Positions 41,907-50,954 of a stretch of 64,000 nucleotides of DNA are shown here, piece by piece. Below the pieces are notes generated by a model that was not told where the DNA came from, made no database searches, and worked only from the letters and a program-made list of their open reading frames with translations. The translations under genes and the position numbers were made by a program. This DNA is from Acidisoma silvae (lineage in GTDB: Bacteria; Pseudomonadota; Alphaproteobacteria; Acetobacterales; Acetobacteraceae): contig NZ_JAESVB010000018.1 in the NCBI RefSeq assembly GCF_020618775.1, forward strand, positions 1 through 64,000, written 5' to 3'. Numbering within the stretch: the stretch's first letter is position 1; each line of letters opens with the position of its first letter.

Positions 41907-41939
41907 AAAACGCCAGCCGGTCGAACCGGCTGGCGTTTT
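41907..41939. terminator. bidirectional rho-independent terminator
   Basis: aaaacgccagccggt, loop cga, accggctggcgtttt: a perfect 15-bp stem with A-run on one side and T-run on the other. It lies 49 nt beyond the stop of gcd and would end the pqq-gcd transcript; it also works in the other direction. Confidence 0.85.
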
Positions 41940-41987: not shown

Positions 41988-44357
41988 TTAGCTGCCGTCG
42001 GGCAGCGCGTAGGCGCGAATATAGTCACCCAGCTTGGTGTTTACGTCGGTATCGCCGCCATCAACCGTCAGGATGTATTGCTTGCCCTTCTCGGAATAGG
42101 TCATAGGCGTGGACTGGCCGCCCGCGGGCAGACGGTCGGTCCAAAGCAGATCACCGTTCTTGGTATTGAAAGCGCGAATGTAATAGTCGAGCGTCGAAGT
42201 CACGAAGCTCACGCCACCGGCGGTCGCCAGAGGCCCACCTAGCATCGGCGTGCCGAGGTTAAAGGGCAGCGGGATCGGCGTCTCATCCTGAATGCTGCCG
42301 ACGCGATGCTCCCAGATAACCTTGTTCGTGCGCAGGTCGAAGGCCGCCAGATTGCCCCAGGACGGCGCCAGGCAGGGAATACCGACCGGCGACAGGAAGG
42401 GATGCAGGTTGACGCCGAAACGCGCGCCGAACATCGGCTGCACACCGGTTTCAGTGCCCGCAGGGAGGCTGGCCGTGGGCGCCGCCGGGTTCTTCGGGCC
42501 GCGCGGAATCAGGTGCGACACGAAAGGAATGTATTGCGGGTTGGCGATGGCGATCTGATCGGCCTGGTCCACCGAAATGCCACCCCATTCAAAGGTGCCG
42601 TAGTCACCAGGGAAAATAAGCGAACCCTTCAGAGACGGCGGCGTGAACGGACCTTCATAGTTCATGCTGTGGAACATGATGCGGCAGGCCAGCTGGTCGA
42701 AGGTCGTGGCGCCCCACATGTCGGCGCCCGTCAGCTTCCTGCGCGGACGGAAGGAGAGTTCCGAATAAGGCTGCGTCGGCGAGGTATGATCGCCAGGCGC
42801 CGCGCTCTGCGGAACCGGCGTTTCAGGAGCCGGCACGATCAGATGGCCGCTGCGGCGATCCAGCACGAAGATATTGCCGGTCTTGGCCGGTGCATAGAGC
42901 GCCGGAACCACACCGTCCTTGGTCTGGACGTCGGCAAGGCTGAACTGGGACGGCATATCCATGTCCCAAAGATCGTGATGCACCGTCTGATAAGACCAGA
43001 CCAGCTTGCCGGTCTTGATATCAAGCGCCACCACAGACGCACCGTAGCGCTGCTGATCCGGCGTGCGATCGCCGCCCCAGATATCGTCGGCCGTCGAACC
43101 GAGCGGCAGGTAGACCATGCCTAGTTTTTCATCGATGACGCCGGGCATCCAGGAATTGGGGGAGCCGGCCGACAGCTGATGCGTGGCGGAAGGCATTTCG
43201 TTCGGGTCGTGGTTACCGGCGTCGAAAACCCAGACCAGTTTGCCGGAATAGACGTCATAGGCGCGGATCGCGCCTGACGGCACATGCTTCGACCAGTTGT
43301 CGATGACGGCACCGCCCATGACCAGAACCTGGCTGCCGACGGCCGGCGGTGAGGTCGCGGAGTAGAAGCCGGCGGTCTCGTAGGGGCTGCCGTATTTCAG
43401 GTCGACCACACCATGGTCGCCCCAGTTCTCGCACAGCTGTCCGTCATCGGCATTGATCGCGTACATCAGGCCGGTTGCGGTCGGCAGGAAGATGCGGCGC
43501 TGGCAATCGTGCGGAGCGGGCTTGCCGTCCAGCGTCGTCGCACCGGGCTGCGTCTCATGATAGCCGACGCCACGGCAAGTCAGATGCTGGAAGGTGCGGT
43601 TGTCCACGACATGCGGATCGAACTCCCACTTCTTCTTGCCCGTGGCTGCATCGATCGCGAAGACCAGGTCATGCGGCGTGCAGGCATAGACCGTATCGCC
43701 GACTTTCAGTGGCGTCACTTCGTAGGTCGTCTGACCGGAATCATTAGGGCCAGCGATATCGCCGGTCTCAAACTGCCAGGCGAGCTTCAGCTTGCCGACA
43801 TTGGCGGGCGTGATCTGGTTAAGGCTCGAAAAGCGATCGCCCGCATTGGTGCCGCCATAGGAGGTCCAATCAGCCCCGGCGACGTTACCCTGCGGCTGCT
43901 TGGCGTCGAAGGCGACATCACCGTGGATTGCCTGCACGTCCTGCGGCATCGCGATGCCGAGGGTGATGACTGCCAACACGACCGTCGCGCCAAGCGCGTA
44001 TTTGCCGCTCTTGCCAATGATCTTGTTGCCGACGAAAGGCAGCAGCAGCCAGACGCCGAGCGGTGCAATGACATCGCCGCGCGGGGCGAGCTTCCAGAAA
44101 TCGAAGCCCACTTCGCCGATCGCCCAGATCAGCGTGCCGATAAGGATAGCCGCATAGAGCCAGAAGGCGGCAGCGCGGCAGCGCCAGACCAGGACGGCCG
44201 TGACCAGGATGGCGATGCCGGTGATGACGTAATAAAGCGAGCCGCCGAGGGCCGCCAGCCAGATACCGCCGATACCGAAGTAAAGTCCGATCAAGGCAAA
44301 TACGAGGCTGGTGATGATGAGTATTATCGGTGGTCGCGTCGACACAGGGGCTGTCAT
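41988..44357 (-). CDS. gcd: membrane-bound PQQ-dependent glucose dehydrogenase
   Basis: A 789-residue quinoprotein that oxidises glucose (and related aldoses) to the lactone in the periplasm and passes electrons to ubiquinone. The first ~140 residues hold five transmembrane helices (starting PPIILIITSLVFALIGLYFG), followed by an eight-bladed PQQ propeller with DWTSYGGTNAGDRFSSLNQI, the conserved LTCRGVGYHE segment, GGAVIDNWSKHVPSGAIRAY and DDIWGGDRTPDQQRYG. Length is normal for mGDH. The ATG at 44357 is 14 nt after the pqqE stop, so it is the last gene of the pqq operon and made together with its cofactor. A terminator follows at 41907. Confidence 0.93.
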   Translation of the reverse strand: MTAPVSTRPPIILIITSLVFALIGLYFGIGGIWLAALGGSLYYVITGIAILVTAVLVWRCRAAAFWLYAAILIGTLIWAIGEVGFDFWKLAPRGDVIAPLGVWLLLPFVGNKIIGKSGKYALGATVVLAVITLGIAMPQDVQAIHGDVAFDAKQPQGNVAGADWTSYGGTNAGDRFSSLNQITPANVGKLKLAWQFETGDIAGPNDSGQTTYEVTPLKVGDTVYACTPHDLVFAIDAATGKKKWEFDPHVVDNRTFQHLTCRGVGYHETQPGATTLDGKPAPHDCQRRIFLPTATGLMYAINADDGQLCENWGDHGVVDLKYGSPYETAGFYSATSPPAVGSQVLVMGGAVIDNWSKHVPSGAIRAYDVYSGKLVWVFDAGNHDPNEMPSATHQLSAGSPNSWMPGVIDEKLGMVYLPLGSTADDIWGGDRTPDQQRYGASVVALDIKTGKLVWSYQTVHHDLWDMDMPSQFSLADVQTKDGVVPALYAPAKTGNIFVLDRRSGHLIVPAPETPVPQSAAPGDHTSPTQPYSELSFRPRRKLTGADMWGATTFDQLACRIMFHSMNYEGPFTPPSLKGSLIFPGDYGTFEWGGISVDQADQIAIANPQYIPFVSHLIPRGPKNPAAPTASLPAGTETGVQPMFGARFGVNLHPFLSPVGIPCLAPSWGNLAAFDLRTNKVIWEHRVGSIQDETPIPLPFNLGTPMLGGPLATAGGVSFVTSTLDYYIRAFNTKNGDLLWTDRLPAGGQSTPMTYSEKGKQYILTVDGGDTDVNTKLGDYIRAYALPDGS

Positions 44358-44371
44358 TATTTGACTCTTAT

Positions 44372-45469
44372 TCAGGGAGAGGTTGGTTTCGCGTTCTGCC
44401 GGTAGACAAAGTCCGGCGCGACGGAGGGGCGGGCCGCGATCAGCCCTTGCAGGGCATGATGATGCGGAGATCGGGCACAAACGGGATCGGTTGCGGCGGC
44501 GTCACCCAAGAGGGCCAGCGCCTGGCAGCGGCAGCCGCCCCAGTCCTGTTCCTTGAGGGCGCAACCTTGACAGGGTTCGGGCATCCAGTCGGTGCCGCGG
44601 AAGCGCTGAAAGGCTGGATCCCGCAGCCAGATATCGGCAAGTGATGTCTCGCGGATATTGGGAAAGGTGATGCTGGTGATAGTCTCGGCCGCGTGGCAGG
44701 ACAGCGCCTGCCCGGTGGGCGAGATGACGATGAAGCGGCGGGCCCAGCCATCCATACAGGATTTAGGCTGATCGCCGTGATAGTCGGGGGTGACATAGTC
44801 GATTGCCATGCAACCGGCATAAAGCACCCTCCCCGCTTCGACCGCCGCGGTCGCCGCCATCAATTCAGTCGCATCCGGCAGAAGGGCATTGCGATTGATC
44901 AGGCCCCAGCCATAATATTGCGTATGGGCGATTTCGACCCGCTGCGCGCCGAGGTCGGATGCCAGTGCCATCATGGCCGGCACATCGTGCAGGTTCTGGC
45001 GATGGATGACGAAGTTGCAGGTCAGCGGCAGGCCAGCTGCCTTGATCAGACGCGCTGCGTCCAGCTTGCGCGCCTGGGCGCCCTTCATCCCGCCGATCCG
45101 CTCGGCTTCCGCCGCGTCGGCATGCTGAAAAGAAAGCTGCACATGATCGAGCCCGGCATCGACGAGAATGCCAAGCTTCGCCGCATCCATCGTAACGCCG
45201 GAGGTGATGAGATTGACATAGAGGCCGGCGGTTGATGCCGCACGGATGAGATCCGGCAGATCGGTCCGCAGCATCGGTTCACCGCCCGACAGATGCAGAT
45301 GCAGCACACCCAAGGCTGCCGCTTCCGCGAAGACGCGAGACCAATCTTCAGTCGATACTTCCTGCGCAGCCCGCGCCATTTCCAATGGATTTGAGCAATA
45401 CGGGCAGCGTAGCGGGCAGCGATGCGTGACCTCGGCCACCAGCGCCATGGGCAGCGGGATCGCGCTCAT
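44372..45469 (-). CDS. pqqE: PqqE, radical SAM peptide cyclase
   Basis: A 365-residue radical SAM enzyme that makes the Glu-Tyr carbon-carbon crosslink in PqqA, the first step in PQQ synthesis. The SAM cluster motif CxxxCxxC is HRCPLRCPYCSN (about residues 17-27), with SGGEP at the SAM site. The C-terminal SPASM domain supplies auxiliary cluster ligands (SCMDGWARR, SCHAAE, CQGCALKEQDWGGCRCQA). Its ATG overlaps the pqqD stop by 4 nt, consistent with the need of PqqE for PqqD. Confidence 0.96.
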   Translation of the reverse strand: MSAIPLPMALVAEVTHRCPLRCPYCSNPLEMARAAQEVSTEDWSRVFAEAAALGVLHLHLSGGEPMLRTDLPDLIRAASTAGLYVNLITSGVTMDAAKLGILVDAGLDHVQLSFQHADAAEAERIGGMKGAQARKLDAARLIKAAGLPLTCNFVIHRQNLHDVPAMMALASDLGAQRVEIAHTQYYGWGLINRNALLPDATELMAATAAVEAGRVLYAGCMAIDYVTPDYHGDQPKSCMDGWARRFIVISPTGQALSCHAAETITSITFPNIRETSLADIWLRDPAFQRFRGTDWMPEPCQGCALKEQDWGGCRCQALALLGDAAATDPVCARSPHHHALQGLIAARPSVAPDFVYRQNAKPTSP

Positions 45470-45756
45470 GGCACCGCTCTCCGGTCGATGACAATGCCAC
45501 GGTCTGCGAGATCGGTCAGCAGTTCCAGAACATCGGCCAGGATGACCTCCGAAGGCGCCTGGAAACGTACCGCCAGATCAGCCACGATGCCACTGACAGT
45601 CCGCGTTCCATCGATGGCGGACAGCACCGCCTGCGCGCTTTCATCCGGCATCATGGCGCGTTCCGGGGTCAGCAGGACCCAGACAGAGCGGGCGGCATCG
45701 AAGCGGCATTTGATGCCGCGAGGAAAAGCCGGGATGCTGTCTGAGGCGATGGTCAT
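45466..45756 (-). CDS. pqqD: PqqD, PqqA-binding chaperone
   Basis: A 96-residue RiPP recognition element that binds the PqqA precursor and presents it to PqqE. The family segments PAFPRGIKCRFDAARSVWVL and LLTPERAMMPDESAQAVLSA are present, followed by the winged-helix end (VLELLTDLADRGIVI). Separate from pqqC here (a fusion in some species). It begins 7 nt after the pqqC stop and its stop overlaps the pqqE start. Confidence 0.95.
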   Translation of the reverse strand: MTIASDSIPAFPRGIKCRFDAARSVWVLLTPERAMMPDESAQAVLSAIDGTRTVSGIVADLAVRFQAPSEVILADVLELLTDLADRGIVIDRRAVP

Positions 45757-45763
45757 GCTGCCC

Positions 45764-46495
45764 TCAGACTGCCGCCGGCTGGAAACAGCCCGGGGGCACG
45801 AAGCCCGGCGCTAGATAAGCAAAATAAAGCGCATCCAGCTGCGACCATAGAACGTCGCATTTAAAGCGGAGCGCTGCGAGCACGGCTTCCTGTTTTTCAG
45901 TATCCGTCGCGTGGCTTTTCACATAGTCCAGCGCGAAGGCCACGTCTTTCGGCGCCTGCGACAGGCGCGGGGTGAAATAGGCGAGCGTGCCCTCATTCAC
46001 GAAATCATAATGCTGCAGCATGCCGGCGACGCGCTCGCTGATGATGGTCGGCGAAAACATCTCGGTCAGCGACGACGCAATCGCCTCCAGTAGCGGCCGC
46101 TCCTGCACGAAGCGGACATAGGCATCGACCGCGAAACGCGTGCCTGGAAGAATGCCGCTGGCGGACTCAACATAATCTGCGTCCAGGCCGACGCCTTCTG
46201 CCAGTTTCAGCCAGCGCGCGATGCCGCCCTGGCCGGGCGCGTCGCCGTCATGGTCGACAATGCGGCTCCGCCATTCGCGGCGCAGGTCCGCAGTCGGCAG
46301 TCGCGCCATCAGGCTGGCGTCCTTCGCGGGAATGCGGCTCTGATAGTAATAGCGATTGAGTGCCCAGGCCTGCACCTGCGCCTGGGTAAGCTTGCCGTCA
46401 TGCAGCAGCCGGTGAAAGGGATGCAGATTATGGTAGCGTTCCGCGCCGATGGCACGGAGCGCAGCTTCCAATGCGTCAGAAGAAAGAAGCGTCAT
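45764..46495 (-). CDS. pqqC: PqqC, final oxidase of PQQ synthesis
   Basis: A 243-residue cofactor-free oxidase that closes the last ring and carries out the eight-electron oxidation giving PQQ. All-helical TENA/THI-4-like fold. Recognisable segments include YHNLHPFHRLLHDGKLTQAQ near the start, ALNRYYYQSRIPAKDASLMA, RIVDHDGD, GTRFAVDAYVRF and VLAALRFKCDVLWSQLDALY at the end. Length is normal. The ATG overlaps the pqqB stop by 4 nt. Confidence 0.96.
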   Translation of the reverse strand: MTLLSSDALEAALRAIGAERYHNLHPFHRLLHDGKLTQAQVQAWALNRYYYQSRIPAKDASLMARLPTADLRREWRSRIVDHDGDAPGQGGIARWLKLAEGVGLDADYVESASGILPGTRFAVDAYVRFVQERPLLEAIASSLTEMFSPTIISERVAGMLQHYDFVNEGTLAYFTPRLSQAPKDVAFALDYVKSHATDTEKQEAVLAALRFKCDVLWSQLDALYFAYLAPGFVPPGCFQPAAV

Positions 46496-47409
46496 AGCTG
46501 CACCGTCATGCCGTCGAAGGCGACATCCCAGCCGGCTGCGATAACCATTGCATGTTCCGGCGAGGCGCGATCGAGAATGGGATTGGAATTATTGATATGA
46601 ATAAGGATCTTGCGGCCGACTGATATATCGGCAAAGGCATCAATTGTGCTGCCCTCGCCGCTGACAGGCATATGGCCCATGCGGCGGCCCGTCTTTGGCC
46701 CTAGGCCAGCCCTGATCATCTCGTCATCTTCCCAGAGCGTTCCATCAAAGAAGACAAGATCGGCATCCGCAATGCGTGACCGGACAGCCTCCGTCAGATG
46801 AGCGCAGCCGGGAATGAAAACCATGCGCTTCGCGCCGTCGCTGATATCCAGCCCCATGACGTCTTCATCGGATTGCACGTCCTGCCCTGCCGTTTCGAGA
46901 AAGAGCGGGACCTTGCCCGGTACAGGAAACAGGGTTGCCGTCAAACCGCTATCCTGCCCATCAGGAAGGCGAAGCGAAGATGGCACTGTCGTTGCAATCG
47001 TATGGCGCGTCACAAATTCCGATGACAGAGCATTAAATATTGGATTTTCTGCCAAAACATCCAGCACAGGCGGCGCCGCATAAAGATCAAGCTCATGGCG
47101 TTCGCGCAGGCAAAGAAGGCCGGTGATCGTATCGACTTCGGCCGCTGTCAGAACGACACCGGCAATTGGCGATGAGCGCAGGCCTTCCCGCGGATGCAGG
47201 ACTGGCGTGGACAAAATCTGCTGCCGCAAATCCGGTGACGCATTCAGCAAAAACCAATGCCGCTGATCAGCACTGATCGCCAAACTCGTTTGACTTTGCG
47301 GAGGGCAAAGCGGATCGGCATTGCGCGCACGACCGCAGCGAACGGCATTAGAATTCCACTGCGGGAATCCGCCACCGGCCGCCGCCCCAAGGACGGTGAT
47401 GAATATCAT
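46492..47409 (-). CDS. pqqB: PqqB, metallo-beta-lactamase-fold hydroxylase
   Basis: A 305-residue member of the metallo-beta-lactamase superfamily acting on the Glu-Tyr intermediate, thought to hydroxylate the tyrosine ring. The N-terminal ITVLGAAAGGGFPQWNSNA is diagnostic, and FIPGCAHLTEAVRSRI and MGHMPVSGEGSTIDAF are the conserved C-terminal motifs. The ATG at 47409 comes two bases after the T-run of the hairpin at 47419-47442, and no Shine-Dalgarno sequence is visible between hairpin and start; the only GGGAG is inside the hairpin. This is unusual and would make its translation depend on hairpin melting or leaderless-like initiation. Confidence 0.95.
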   Translation of the reverse strand: MIFITVLGAAAGGGFPQWNSNAVRCGRARNADPLCPPQSQTSLAISADQRHWFLLNASPDLRQQILSTPVLHPREGLRSSPIAGVVLTAAEVDTITGLLCLRERHELDLYAAPPVLDVLAENPIFNALSSEFVTRHTIATTVPSSLRLPDGQDSGLTATLFPVPGKVPLFLETAGQDVQSDEDVMGLDISDGAKRMVFIPGCAHLTEAVRSRIADADLVFFDGTLWEDDEMIRAGLGPKTGRRMGHMPVSGEGSTIDAFADISVGRKILIHINNSNPILDRASPEHAMVIAAGWDVAFDGMTVQL

Positions 47410-47418
47410 GGAAAAAAA

Positions 47419-47442
47419 ATCGGCTCCCAGACGGGAGCCGAT
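47419..47442 (-). terminator. pqqA-pqqB intercistronic terminator/attenuator
   Basis: On the minus-strand transcript: ATCGGCTCCC, loop GTCT, GGGAGCCGAT followed by a run of eight T. This is a perfect 10-bp stem plus U-tract, a standard rho-independent terminator, located 4 nt after the pqqA stop and 10 nt before the pqqB start. Partial read-through would yield far more PqqA precursor than enzymes. Confidence 0.85.
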
Positions 47443-47445
47443 ATA

Positions 47446-47526
47446 TTACTTCTTAGTCGCGCAAACGTAGCTGTTGATTTCAGCGCCGAGCGAGACTTCG
47501 ACAATGCGGGGCTTGTTCCAAGTCAT
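47446..47526 (-). CDS. pqqA: PqqA, PQQ precursor peptide
   Basis: A 26-residue ribosomal precursor whose Glu and Tyr side chains become PQQ. It begins TWNKPRIVEVSLG and carries the ExxxY motif as EINSY (Glu16, Tyr20) before a short CATKK tail. The start has GGAAGG seven nt upstream, a strong ribosome site suited to high expression. It is followed 4 nt later by the attenuator hairpin and then pqqBCDE-gcd. At 26 codons it falls below normal gene-calling limits. Its wording is close to the PqqA I recall from acetic acid bacteria. Confidence 0.95.
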   Translation of the reverse strand: MTWNKPRIVEVSLGAEINSYVCATKK

Positions 47527-47849
47527 AATACGACCTTCCAAAAAATGAACATACGTTAATTAGGATGCTAACTAACTTAACGCAAGACAGATATTTGGTT
47601 AGGCATTTTAGCTTTGCAGCGCCGGTACTTTCAGCAACAGATGTTTTAAAAAACTTAGCCTTAATAACAGAACTTCTGAAGGACCCTAGTGTGTTGGAAA
47701 ATAATTATTTTATGTTTTGCCACTCAGCTTTATAATAATTTCGTGGATCGGCAAAATATATTCGTTATTGTTTGATTGTACGCGGACATGGCTGGCAATT
47801 TTGTCGCCATCGCAAAAATGTGACTGAGCGAACGAGGAGATGGCGGCGA

Positions 47850-49339: not shown

Positions 49340-50056
49340 TTATTCGACGATGACACTACCTATTTGGATCAAAATCATCGTTGGCTGCGCTGGACTGGCA
49401 CCTTCTGCAGTACGGCGAACAACACGTCTCAAAGTTGGAAAAAGCAAACCGCCGAAGTTTGTATGGTCATAACAGTAGTGAGTTGCGACGCCGCCGGCGA
49501 CTTCCGTCACATAGTCGATACGCTGTAGGAGGCCACGATTATCAAAATAGAAGATCTGTTCCGGGCAATGCGTCGGGATTTCTTGTGGAAATTTGACATG
49601 TAACCGCCGCCAGATAGCATTGCTCTCTTGATGCGGAGACAGTTCGTTTAGCTCAAAACCCGGATATGTGAACAAGAACGGCGTACAGAGATAGTTCCAC
49701 GTCGCATAGGCATTGAAGTACAGGAGCTGCAACGGATCCCAAATGGTGGCCAGCACATGGCCCGCAAAACTATCTCTTGGATTGACACGCTCCTCGATGA
49801 CACTTCCATCATTGCCCGTGATCCAAACGCCGTCGGGGCGAAATTCTCCGACATTGCCGGCGCCTTGAAATGGCGTGATCGCGACAGACGGCGTGCGTGT
49901 GTTGATACGCAGGAGGGCCTTTATCCCGTCTGGTTGACCCTTAAGGCGATAAAACGGTCCCGTCAGAGATACCCTTGCGTGAAGGGATGTCACGGCTTGC
50001 CAACGCTCCAGCCCACCGTGGGCGTTAAGCGCCAATTCCAGCAGATCGCTCATCAT
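49340..50056 (-). CDS. hypothetical protein, uncharacterised conserved type
   Basis: A 238-residue protein without recognised catalytic motifs. It starts MSDLLELALNAHGGLERWQA, a helix often seen at the front of lipoprotein-carrier-like beta folds, then alternating strands (VWITGNDGSVIEERVNPRDS, YATWNYLCTPFLFTYPGFEL) ending QIFYFDNRGLLQRIDYVTEV and a His/Tyr-rich tail. No signal peptide or membrane helix is seen. It is divergent from a TetR gene 95 bp away, and that arrangement suggests it is the regulated target, perhaps in detoxification. Real coding is likely; function is unknown. Confidence 0.7.
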   Translation of the reverse strand: MMSDLLELALNAHGGLERWQAVTSLHARVSLTGPFYRLKGQPDGIKALLRINTRTPSVAITPFQGAGNVGEFRPDGVWITGNDGSVIEERVNPRDSFAGHVLATIWDPLQLLYFNAYATWNYLCTPFLFTYPGFELNELSPHQESNAIWRRLHVKFPQEIPTHCPEQIFYFDNRGLLQRIDYVTEVAGGVATHYCYDHTNFGGLLFPTLRRVVRRTAEGASPAQPTMILIQIGSVIVE

Positions 50057-50085: not shown

Positions 50086-50151
50086 CATAATTTATTGACT
50101 TTAGTGGCGATTGCAATTAAAAATATTCGTGATGATGCGTTGGAGCAAAAA

Positions 50152-50748
50152 ATGAGAGTTTCTAAAGAGAAAGCAGCGGAAAATCGAGGTGCGCTCCTCG
50201 ATGCCGCTAGCCGCCTGTTTCGCGAAAAGGGCATCGGCGGTGTTGGCGTCGCGGAAGTCGCAAAAGAGGCGGGGCTGACGCATGGAGCGCTTTACGCCCA
50301 TTTCTCGTCTAAAGACGCCCTCGCAGCAGAGGCCTTCAATATTGGGTTCGCGGCTAATATGGCAGCGATGGCAGCGTGGAAGGGTGAACGGGAGCCGACG
50401 TTCGAAGAATATGTGCGAGTGCTTTTCTCGGAAGGGATGCGGGATAAGCTCGCGACTGGTTGCCCTATGACGGCGTCCGCGAGTGATGCGGGAAGGCAGG
50501 GTGAAGCCGTCAGTGCTAGTTTTGCTCGCTCCTTCAAAGAAGAGACACGCATGGTCGAGCTCGCTCTTGATCCGGCCGTCGAGCCTTCGAGGCGGGCAAT
50601 ATTGGCGATCGCATCTGTCGCGGCTCAAATTGGAGCTATTGCCGTCTCCCGTGCGGTCGTGAAAACCGACCCTGCATTGGCATCTACGGTCCTGGAGGCC
50701 GTCCGTGACACAATCATAGAGGCCCACAGAGCCCTCCATCATCCCTAG
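50152..50748 (+). CDS. TetR-family transcriptional regulator
   Basis: A 198-residue TetR/AcrR repressor. The HTH is clear: ALLDAASRLFREKGIGGVGV followed by AEVAKEAGLTHGALYAHFSS (about 12-52), then an all-helical ligand-binding domain with a GCPMTASASDAG segment typical of the subgroup containing reductase- or hydrolase-linked regulators. The start is the ATG at 50152, with GGAG six nt upstream, not the upstream frame extension. It is divergent from the gene ending at 49340 and probably represses it. Confidence 0.9.
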   Translation: MRVSKEKAAENRGALLDAASRLFREKGIGGVGVAEVAKEAGLTHGALYAHFSSKDALAAEAFNIGFAANMAAMAAWKGEREPTFEEYVRVLFSEGMRDKLATGCPMTASASDAGRQGEAVSASFARSFKEETRMVELALDPAVEPSRRAILAIASVAAQIGAIAVSRAVVKTDPALASTVLEAVRDTIIEAHRALHHP

Positions 50749-50954
50749 GTAATGTTGATGCATCGACACTCTTTCCTGCATGCAAATTCCAGACGCCAAC
50801 GCAAAGGAGCGAGTCAAAAGCTCCAGGGTGCTAATTACTATCCTCGACAAGTACATCGGTTAGATTTTTCGGTGACTGGTGCTTCTCATTTTAGACCAGC
50901 ATTATTCACGGTACGTTTTTAACTGCTGACTACCGCATCAAGCTCCAGATAAAG

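Follow-up and report, generated by a model that had tools for sequence, protein, structure and literature searches.

The pqq gene cluster of A. silvae

The window analysed here, i.e., the entire stretch of 64,000 nucleotides from contig NZ_JAESVB010000018.1 of Acidisoma silvae, harbours the genes pqqA, B, C, D and E in this order on its minus strand. In profile searches, all five scored above the curated NCBIfam cut-offs: (i) pqqA (47446..47526, stop codon TAA at 47448-47446), coding for the 26-aa PQQ precursor peptide MTWNKPRIVEVSLGAEINSYVCATKK (TIGR02107, E 8.8e-10), (ii) pqqB (46492..47409, start codon ATG at 47409-47407; 305 aa; TIGR02108, E 2.1e-115), (iii) pqqC (45764..46495; TIGR02111, E 3e-118), (iv) pqqD (45466..45756; TIGR03859, E 3e-19), and (v) pqqE (44372..45469; TIGR02109, E 4.5e-157). 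This pqqA is the only match to TIGR02107 found in the genome. A gene for a PQQ-dependent dehydrogenase (41988..44480, minus strand; PF01011, E 2.4e-219) is located directly 3′ of pqqE. Its longest open reading frame (830 aa) begins with a TTG, the true start probably lying downstream, and judging from its length the product is probably a membrane glucose dehydrogenase. The stem of a strong terminator (41911..41935, minus strand) is found 52 nt past the stop codon of the dehydrogenase gene. The cofactor genes and the PQQ-using dehydrogenase seem to share one operon with this strong terminator at its end.

The pqqA gene is preceded by a ribosome-binding region (47527..47550, minus strand) with GGAAGG 7 nt 5′ of the ATG and an anti-SD duplex energy of -8.0 kcal/mol. 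The sole sigma-70-like match near its start (47634-47605, minus strand, scoring 9/12) lies about 80 nt 5′ of the ATG and is not conserved in A. cellulosilyticum; the promoter scan as a whole was barely above chance (8 matches vs 5.1 expected). Further 5′, the minus strand carries two open reading frames (49340-50056, 238 aa; 50101-50856, 251 aa) that found no counterpart in Pfam or NCBIfam at E 0.001.

Architecture of the pqqA-pqqB junction

Between the stop codon of pqqA and the start codon of pqqB lie 36 nt, which on the minus strand consist of TAT, a stem-loop, eight U and CC. The stem-loop (47419..47442; ATCGGCTCCC-GTCT-GGGAGCCGAT) is formed by 10 perfect pairs and a 4-nt loop. Its last stem base is at the same time the first U of the U8 tract (47412..47419), which is followed by CC (47411-47410) and then by the ATG of pqqB. 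The only SD-like sequence 5′ of pqqB, GGGAG (47424..47428, minus strand), is contained in the 3′ arm of the stem, 14 nt away from the ATG. An earlier sequence-only reading of this stretch, which had described a terminator hairpin with eight U between the two genes, a pqqB start two bases past the U run and a single GGGAG buried in the 3′ arm, was correct in these points; the distance of 4 nt that it had given between pqqA and the hairpin shrinks to 3 nt once the outermost A-U pair is counted.

The folding energy of the 36-nt intergenic region amounts to -19.6 kcal/mol (z -6.7), a stability reached by none of 200 dinucleotide shuffles. When the window was searched for perfect stems of 10 bp or more whose following 8 positions include at least 7 T, a single case was obtained, as compared to a mean of 0.0 in 20 Markov shuffles. 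Beyond chance, the junction thus combines a GC-rich stem with an immediately adjoining U tract, the sequence hallmark of an intrinsic (Rho-independent) terminator. Twenty stretches of the genome together with the window (464 kb in all) yielded 12 strong terminators with a perfect stem, and for only two of these an open reading frame of at least 100 codons starts no more than 30 nt away, namely the pqqB junction and a case with a doubtful TTG start. The compact succession of pqqA, terminator and pqqB is therefore rare in the sampled part of the genome. A dispersed repeat was rejected as its origin, since the 20-letter core of the hairpin is present at one place only in the 5.4-Mb genome. No known RNA family was matched in Rfam up to E 1 between positions 46000 and 50000, and in a test for a regulated switch the hairpin was retained in one equilibrium fold.

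The pqqA-pqqB junction in related genomes

The comparison comprised 161 loci, i.e., the window and L002-L162 except for L082, whose coordinates show it to be the locus L002. Among the sets drawn were the best 80 of 245 loci and two sets of the 30 best-scoring loci each. Following removal of 21 loci (19 with no recognised pqqA within 500 nt, 2 with no start), 140 remained, yielding 106 unique junctions of which 103 (20-200 nt) were scored; this set superseded one of 122 parsed and 88 unique junctions that a narrower PqqB motif had given. The 103 junctions are mostly from Acetobacteraceae, with several loci from outside this family. A terminator was considered strong at a score of at least 20, with dinucleotide shuffles of the same intergenic regions as baseline.

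By this measure, a strong terminator is present between pqqA and pqqB in 64 of the 103 distinct junctions (1.34 expected from shuffles) and missing in the other 39. This recurrence in relatives supports the attenuator proposed in the sequence-only reading. Four junctions of the terminator-free group (L105, L113, L119, L139) show strong folds (z < -4.5), but their T tracts fail the rule used. In some of the 39 junctions, the hairpin may have been kept where the intrinsic terminator was not. Among other Proteobacteria, 14 of 28 parsed junctions reach a score of at least 20, given as a raw count; these junctions derive from the 30 best-scoring loci of a phylum-wide set, of which two failed parsing and one with a doubtful 'pqqA' (L204) was left in. 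The PqqA peptides of the 14 terminator-bearing genomes look Pseudomonas-like. No terminator was found in the four loci from other alphaproteobacterial families in this set. As judged from the sampled sequences, a pqqA-pqqB terminator is common in PQQ-making bacteria, yet not universal. Two features expected of an attenuator, a terminator placed between genes of one operon and its recurrence in relatives, were found here. A title-level search retrieved no publication titles describing a pqqA-pqqB terminator; since subscription journals were mostly outside this search, it is not claimed that the arrangement is unpublished.

Compensatory two-sided changes were observed in 6 of the 12 stem pairs across 13 junctions of acetic acid bacteria, hand-chosen as easily alignable. 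The closest PqqB relative among the best 80 of 245 loci is that of A. cellulosilyticum (83 % identity), the only other one of five genomes of the genus examined to contain pqqB; PQQ synthesis, with PqqB in two of these five including the source genome, looks patchy in the genus. Between the two species, the stem is identical in 19 of 20 positions (including all ten bases of the 3′ arm), as compared to 1 of 4 in the loop. The U tract differs and is interrupted in A. cellulosilyticum (TTCTTTCCC), predicting weaker termination, and the region 5′ of pqqA is hardly alignable. With the stem alike in spite of a changed loop, a broken U tract and a diverged region 5′ of pqqA, selection seems to act on the stem.

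The tight apposition to pqqB is uncommon also among the relatives: the stem ends within 9 nt of the pqqB start in only 3 of the 64 terminator-bearing junctions, namely those of A. silvae, A. cellulosilyticum and L117. The latter belongs to a second genus of the same family and has its stem 4 nt past the pqqA stop codon, a T6 tract and the pqqB start 9 nt past the stem, with two consecutive ATG codons. A fixed distance between stem and ATG had been suspected, as 48 of 64 junctions fall between 18 and 23 nt; the idea was dropped, since only 10 of 23 representatives do so after clustering at 65 % identity. After clustering, this distance is no tighter than that between stop codon and stem (swap test, p 0.41).

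Start site and translation initiation of pqqB

The start of pqqB at 47409 fits the N-termini of the relatives (M...VLGAAAGGGFPQWN), and no in-frame ATG, GTG or TTG occurs between this ATG and the VLGAAAGGGFPQWN motif. A wrong start assignment, with the true start farther downstream as the sequence-only reading had considered, was accordingly rejected. In A. silvae, pqqA and pqqB share a reading frame, as in-frame read-through of the pqqA stop codon would need; since this is likewise the case in 43 of the 103 junctions, which is near one third, it was given no weight.

Over positions -13..-3, the anti-SD duplex energy of pqqB is 0.0 kcal/mol; the value of -6.5 kcal/mol obtained over -21..-3 stems from the GGGAG within the stem. 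In the relatives, the median SD energy is -9.3 kcal/mol for pqqA and -2.5 kcal/mol for pqqB (-0.7 in terminator-bearing junctions), and of the 102 pairs compared, 98 have the stronger SD at pqqA. For pqqB, values of -5 kcal/mol or better are reached in 3 of the 64 terminator-bearing junctions within -15..-3 and in 12.5 % of them over -21..-3. The SD-poor state is less marked among the 23 cluster representatives (median -3.0 over -21..-3, with 6 of 23 reaching -5 or lower). In the genome of A. silvae, 29 % of the leftmost starts (n = 280) and 27 % of the first ATGs (n = 258) of open reading frames of at least 200 aa fail to surpass -2.5 kcal/mol in anti-SD pairing, based on a crude choice of starts; picking the best out of several starts lowers this share to 5 %. 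SD-poor starts thus seem common in this genome. Since, in addition, 61 of the 64 terminator-bearing junctions lack a close SD, pqqB need not be initiated in an exotic manner, and the special initiation mode invoked for it in the sequence-only reading was overdrawn.

The upstream region of pqqB has the layout of SD-less, U-rich (S1-type) initiation: a normally spaced SD is missing, and a U-rich tract precedes the start codon. Runs of at least 6 T within 24 nt 5′ of a candidate start were found for 4 of the 280 open reading frames, pqqB included. In partition-function calculations, the U8 tract, leaving out its stem-paired first U, is predicted to be partly open, with unpaired probabilities of 0.31-0.93 when 260 nt were folded and of 0.28-1.00 when 96 nt were folded. 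For the AUG of pqqB, partial pairing is predicted (unpaired probability 0.08-0.66).

Distance between the pqqA stop codon and the stem

In A. silvae, the stem begins 3 nt past the stop codon of pqqA, as opposed to a median of 26 nt for 27 other terminator-bearing genes of the genome (4 of 27 within 10 nt). Two control genomes gave medians of 31 nt (G063, 12 terminators) and 13 nt (G216, 9 terminators, 4 within 10 nt), and pooling all 48 terminators of the three genomes gave 26 nt again. Among the pqqA junctions, the median is 9 nt for those scoring at least 25 (n = 59; p 6e-7 vs controls) and 16 nt for the 23 cluster representatives (p 8e-4), a comparison in which representatives were taken at score 20 and controls at score 25, and which is biased because short intergenic regions cannot hold distant stems.

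According to an excerpt of a study with E. coli (PMC4824070), a terminator located 5 nt past a stop codon had an efficiency of <10 %, compared to ~90 % at 28 nt, and this ribosome-linked repression was gone in the case of no translation. A ribosome that terminates on pqqA covers the position at which the stem of A. silvae starts, a point missed by the sequence-only reading, and termination and pqqA translation may therefore be linked. By analogy to the E. coli constructs, pqqA translation may set the level of read-through. Such a ribosome control is plausible, though its effect may be slight, as pqqA has only 81 nt.

Proposed function and alternative explanations

The element at the end of pqqA probably represents a partial intrinsic terminator (attenuator), which would provide an excess of pqqA mRNA and leave expression from pqqB onward to read-through. 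Transcription would begin 5′ of pqqA, and most polymerases would be released at the U8 tract, giving rise to a short and abundant pqqA mRNA. A minority would read through and produce a rarer mRNA for pqqBCDE and the PQQ-dependent dehydrogenase, so that the consumed substrate peptide would be formed far in excess of the enzymes. On the read-through mRNA, pqqB would be started with no classical SD, perhaps aided by the U-rich tract. A terminating ribosome covers about 10 nt; with the stem 3 nt off, a ribosome keeping up with the polymerase should hold the hairpin open, and read-through would thus perhaps be set by pqqA translation.

The large PqqA excess postulated in the sequence-only reading is plausible by analogy: in an excerpt of data for Pseudomonas brassicacearum (PMC6722718), pqqA RNA was ~60-fold more abundant than pqqB RNA (log2 TPM of 12.77 and 6.86, respectively), and in an excerpt on Methylosinus (PMC3615186) pqqA exceeded pqqB ~40-fold (11857 and 13927 vs 306 and 313), both organisms standing outside the Acetobacteraceae. 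Since pqqA is unlinked in Methylosinus, a terminator is not the sole route to such an excess.

Alternatively, the hairpin could act as a complete terminator, with pqqA forming a separate unit and pqqB being transcribed from a promoter of its own, perhaps as a leaderless mRNA starting at or near the ATG. The immediate vicinity of pqqB to the U tract and the lack of a normally placed SD indeed resemble leaderless genes, and of the 50 relatives whose stem lies 14-24 nt from the ATG, 31 have a TATAAT-like hexamer (at least 4/6) ending 5-10 nt 5′ of the ATG, as compared to 14.7 expected on the basis of mononucleotide shuffles. However, these relatives are not independent, and under a stricter rule (A2, T6, at least 4/6) 7 hexamers were found vs 6.6 expected, such that the -10 boxes do not exceed shuffles and a second pqqB promoter or leaderless start was rejected as a candidate. 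Moreover, only U8CC directly precedes the ATG in A. silvae, and the promoter scan was empty between pqqA and pqqB on the minus strand. In reporter studies with Gluconobacter oxydans, as summarised in an excerpt of a review (PMC8102297), PpqqA was the only active promoter, whereas the region upstream of pqqB was silent. Separate transcription of pqqB is thus quite unlikely.

The hairpin might also serve mainly as a translational gate, hiding the GGGAG as SD of pqqB until opened by the ribosome that ends pqqA translation (translational coupling). That the 3′ arm carrying this motif (AGGGAG in A. cellulosilyticum) is the same in both species, unlike the U tract, would agree with such a role, and a ribosome at the pqqA stop codon would extend over the initial half of the 5′ arm. 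Yet in a crude equilibrium model the GGGAG stays mostly paired even when the ribosome footprint is masked (unpaired probability 0.00-0.31), and the scarcity of close SDs among the terminator-bearing junctions also argues against such a gate. Moreover, a good SD would normally be closer to the ATG than 13-14 nt. Altogether, a gate as main function appears unlikely.

Finally, termination may play no part, if the transcript is first made in full and the hairpin only acts on the mRNA thereafter, as a stabilising 3′ end or as a processing site, leaving behind a stable pqqA fragment. Strong 3′ hairpins protect RNA from 3′ exonucleases, and one located 3 nt past the stop codon would shield the pqqA RNA; in addition, the ribosome may suppress termination at such a distance, as suggested by the excerpt of PMC4824070. 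On the other hand, eight U right after the stem are unnecessary for stabilisation, and T-rich tails recur in the relatives, rendering this explanation very unlikely.

Within the preferred interpretation as attenuator, the 36-nt element could even combine three tasks: pqqA would act as leader peptide of its own operon, with the ribosome terminating 3 nt from the stem deciding on read-through; the hairpin would act as terminator; and the U8 tract would act as landing site for the SD-less initiation of pqqB. This extended reading is rather unlikely. If true, translation of the precursor itself would tie precursor supply to enzyme synthesis.

Comparison with known systems

The proposed dependence of read-through on the ribosome has counterparts in the pyrBI and rph-pyrE attenuators of E. 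coli, where a ribosome close behind the polymerase prevents formation of the terminator and thereby allows read-through into the next gene. They differ from the junction of A. silvae in their UTP-sensing pause sites, no such sites or regulatory input being known there. Zhang and Deutscher are said to have found in 1992 that the U8 tract of E. coli rnd is needed for translation. This gene likewise has an eight-U run a few nt 5′ of its start codon; in A. silvae the run also follows a perfect terminator stem located past another gene, and a role of S1 there is putative. In Methylobacterium extorquens, short and long pqqD transcripts reportedly occur.

The PQQ operon of P. brassicacearum (excerpt of PMC6722718) also has the precursor gene 5′ of pqqB-E, the RNA of the former being far more abundant there and the downstream genes lower. 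In A. silvae, the stem is 3 nt away from the pqqA stop codon and the U8 tract ends 2 nt 5′ of pqqB. The E. coli tR2 constructs described in the excerpt of PMC4824070, which also discusses the pyrBI attenuator, share with A. silvae a stem located few nt past a stop codon, where the position of the ribosome decides on termination; since the upstream gene of A. silvae comprises 81 nt instead of being full-length, the coupling may be weaker.

Physiological implications

PqqA is a ribosomally made peptide, one molecule of which is consumed per PQQ. The cell must therefore make PqqA in excess over the catalytic enzymes, and the role of the hairpin is most likely to yield far more peptide than enzyme. 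The hairpin belongs to a known kind of arrangement, which in Acidisoma takes an unusually compact form, tight against both genes. In the bacteria sharing it, the recurring pqqA-pqqB terminator would be a simple means to fix the precursor/enzyme ratio, and it could be a limiting factor when acetic acid bacteria are to overproduce PQQ from native operons. The small element of Acidisoma, with its compact form, would furthermore allow tests of how a terminator behaves when shadowed by a terminating ribosome.
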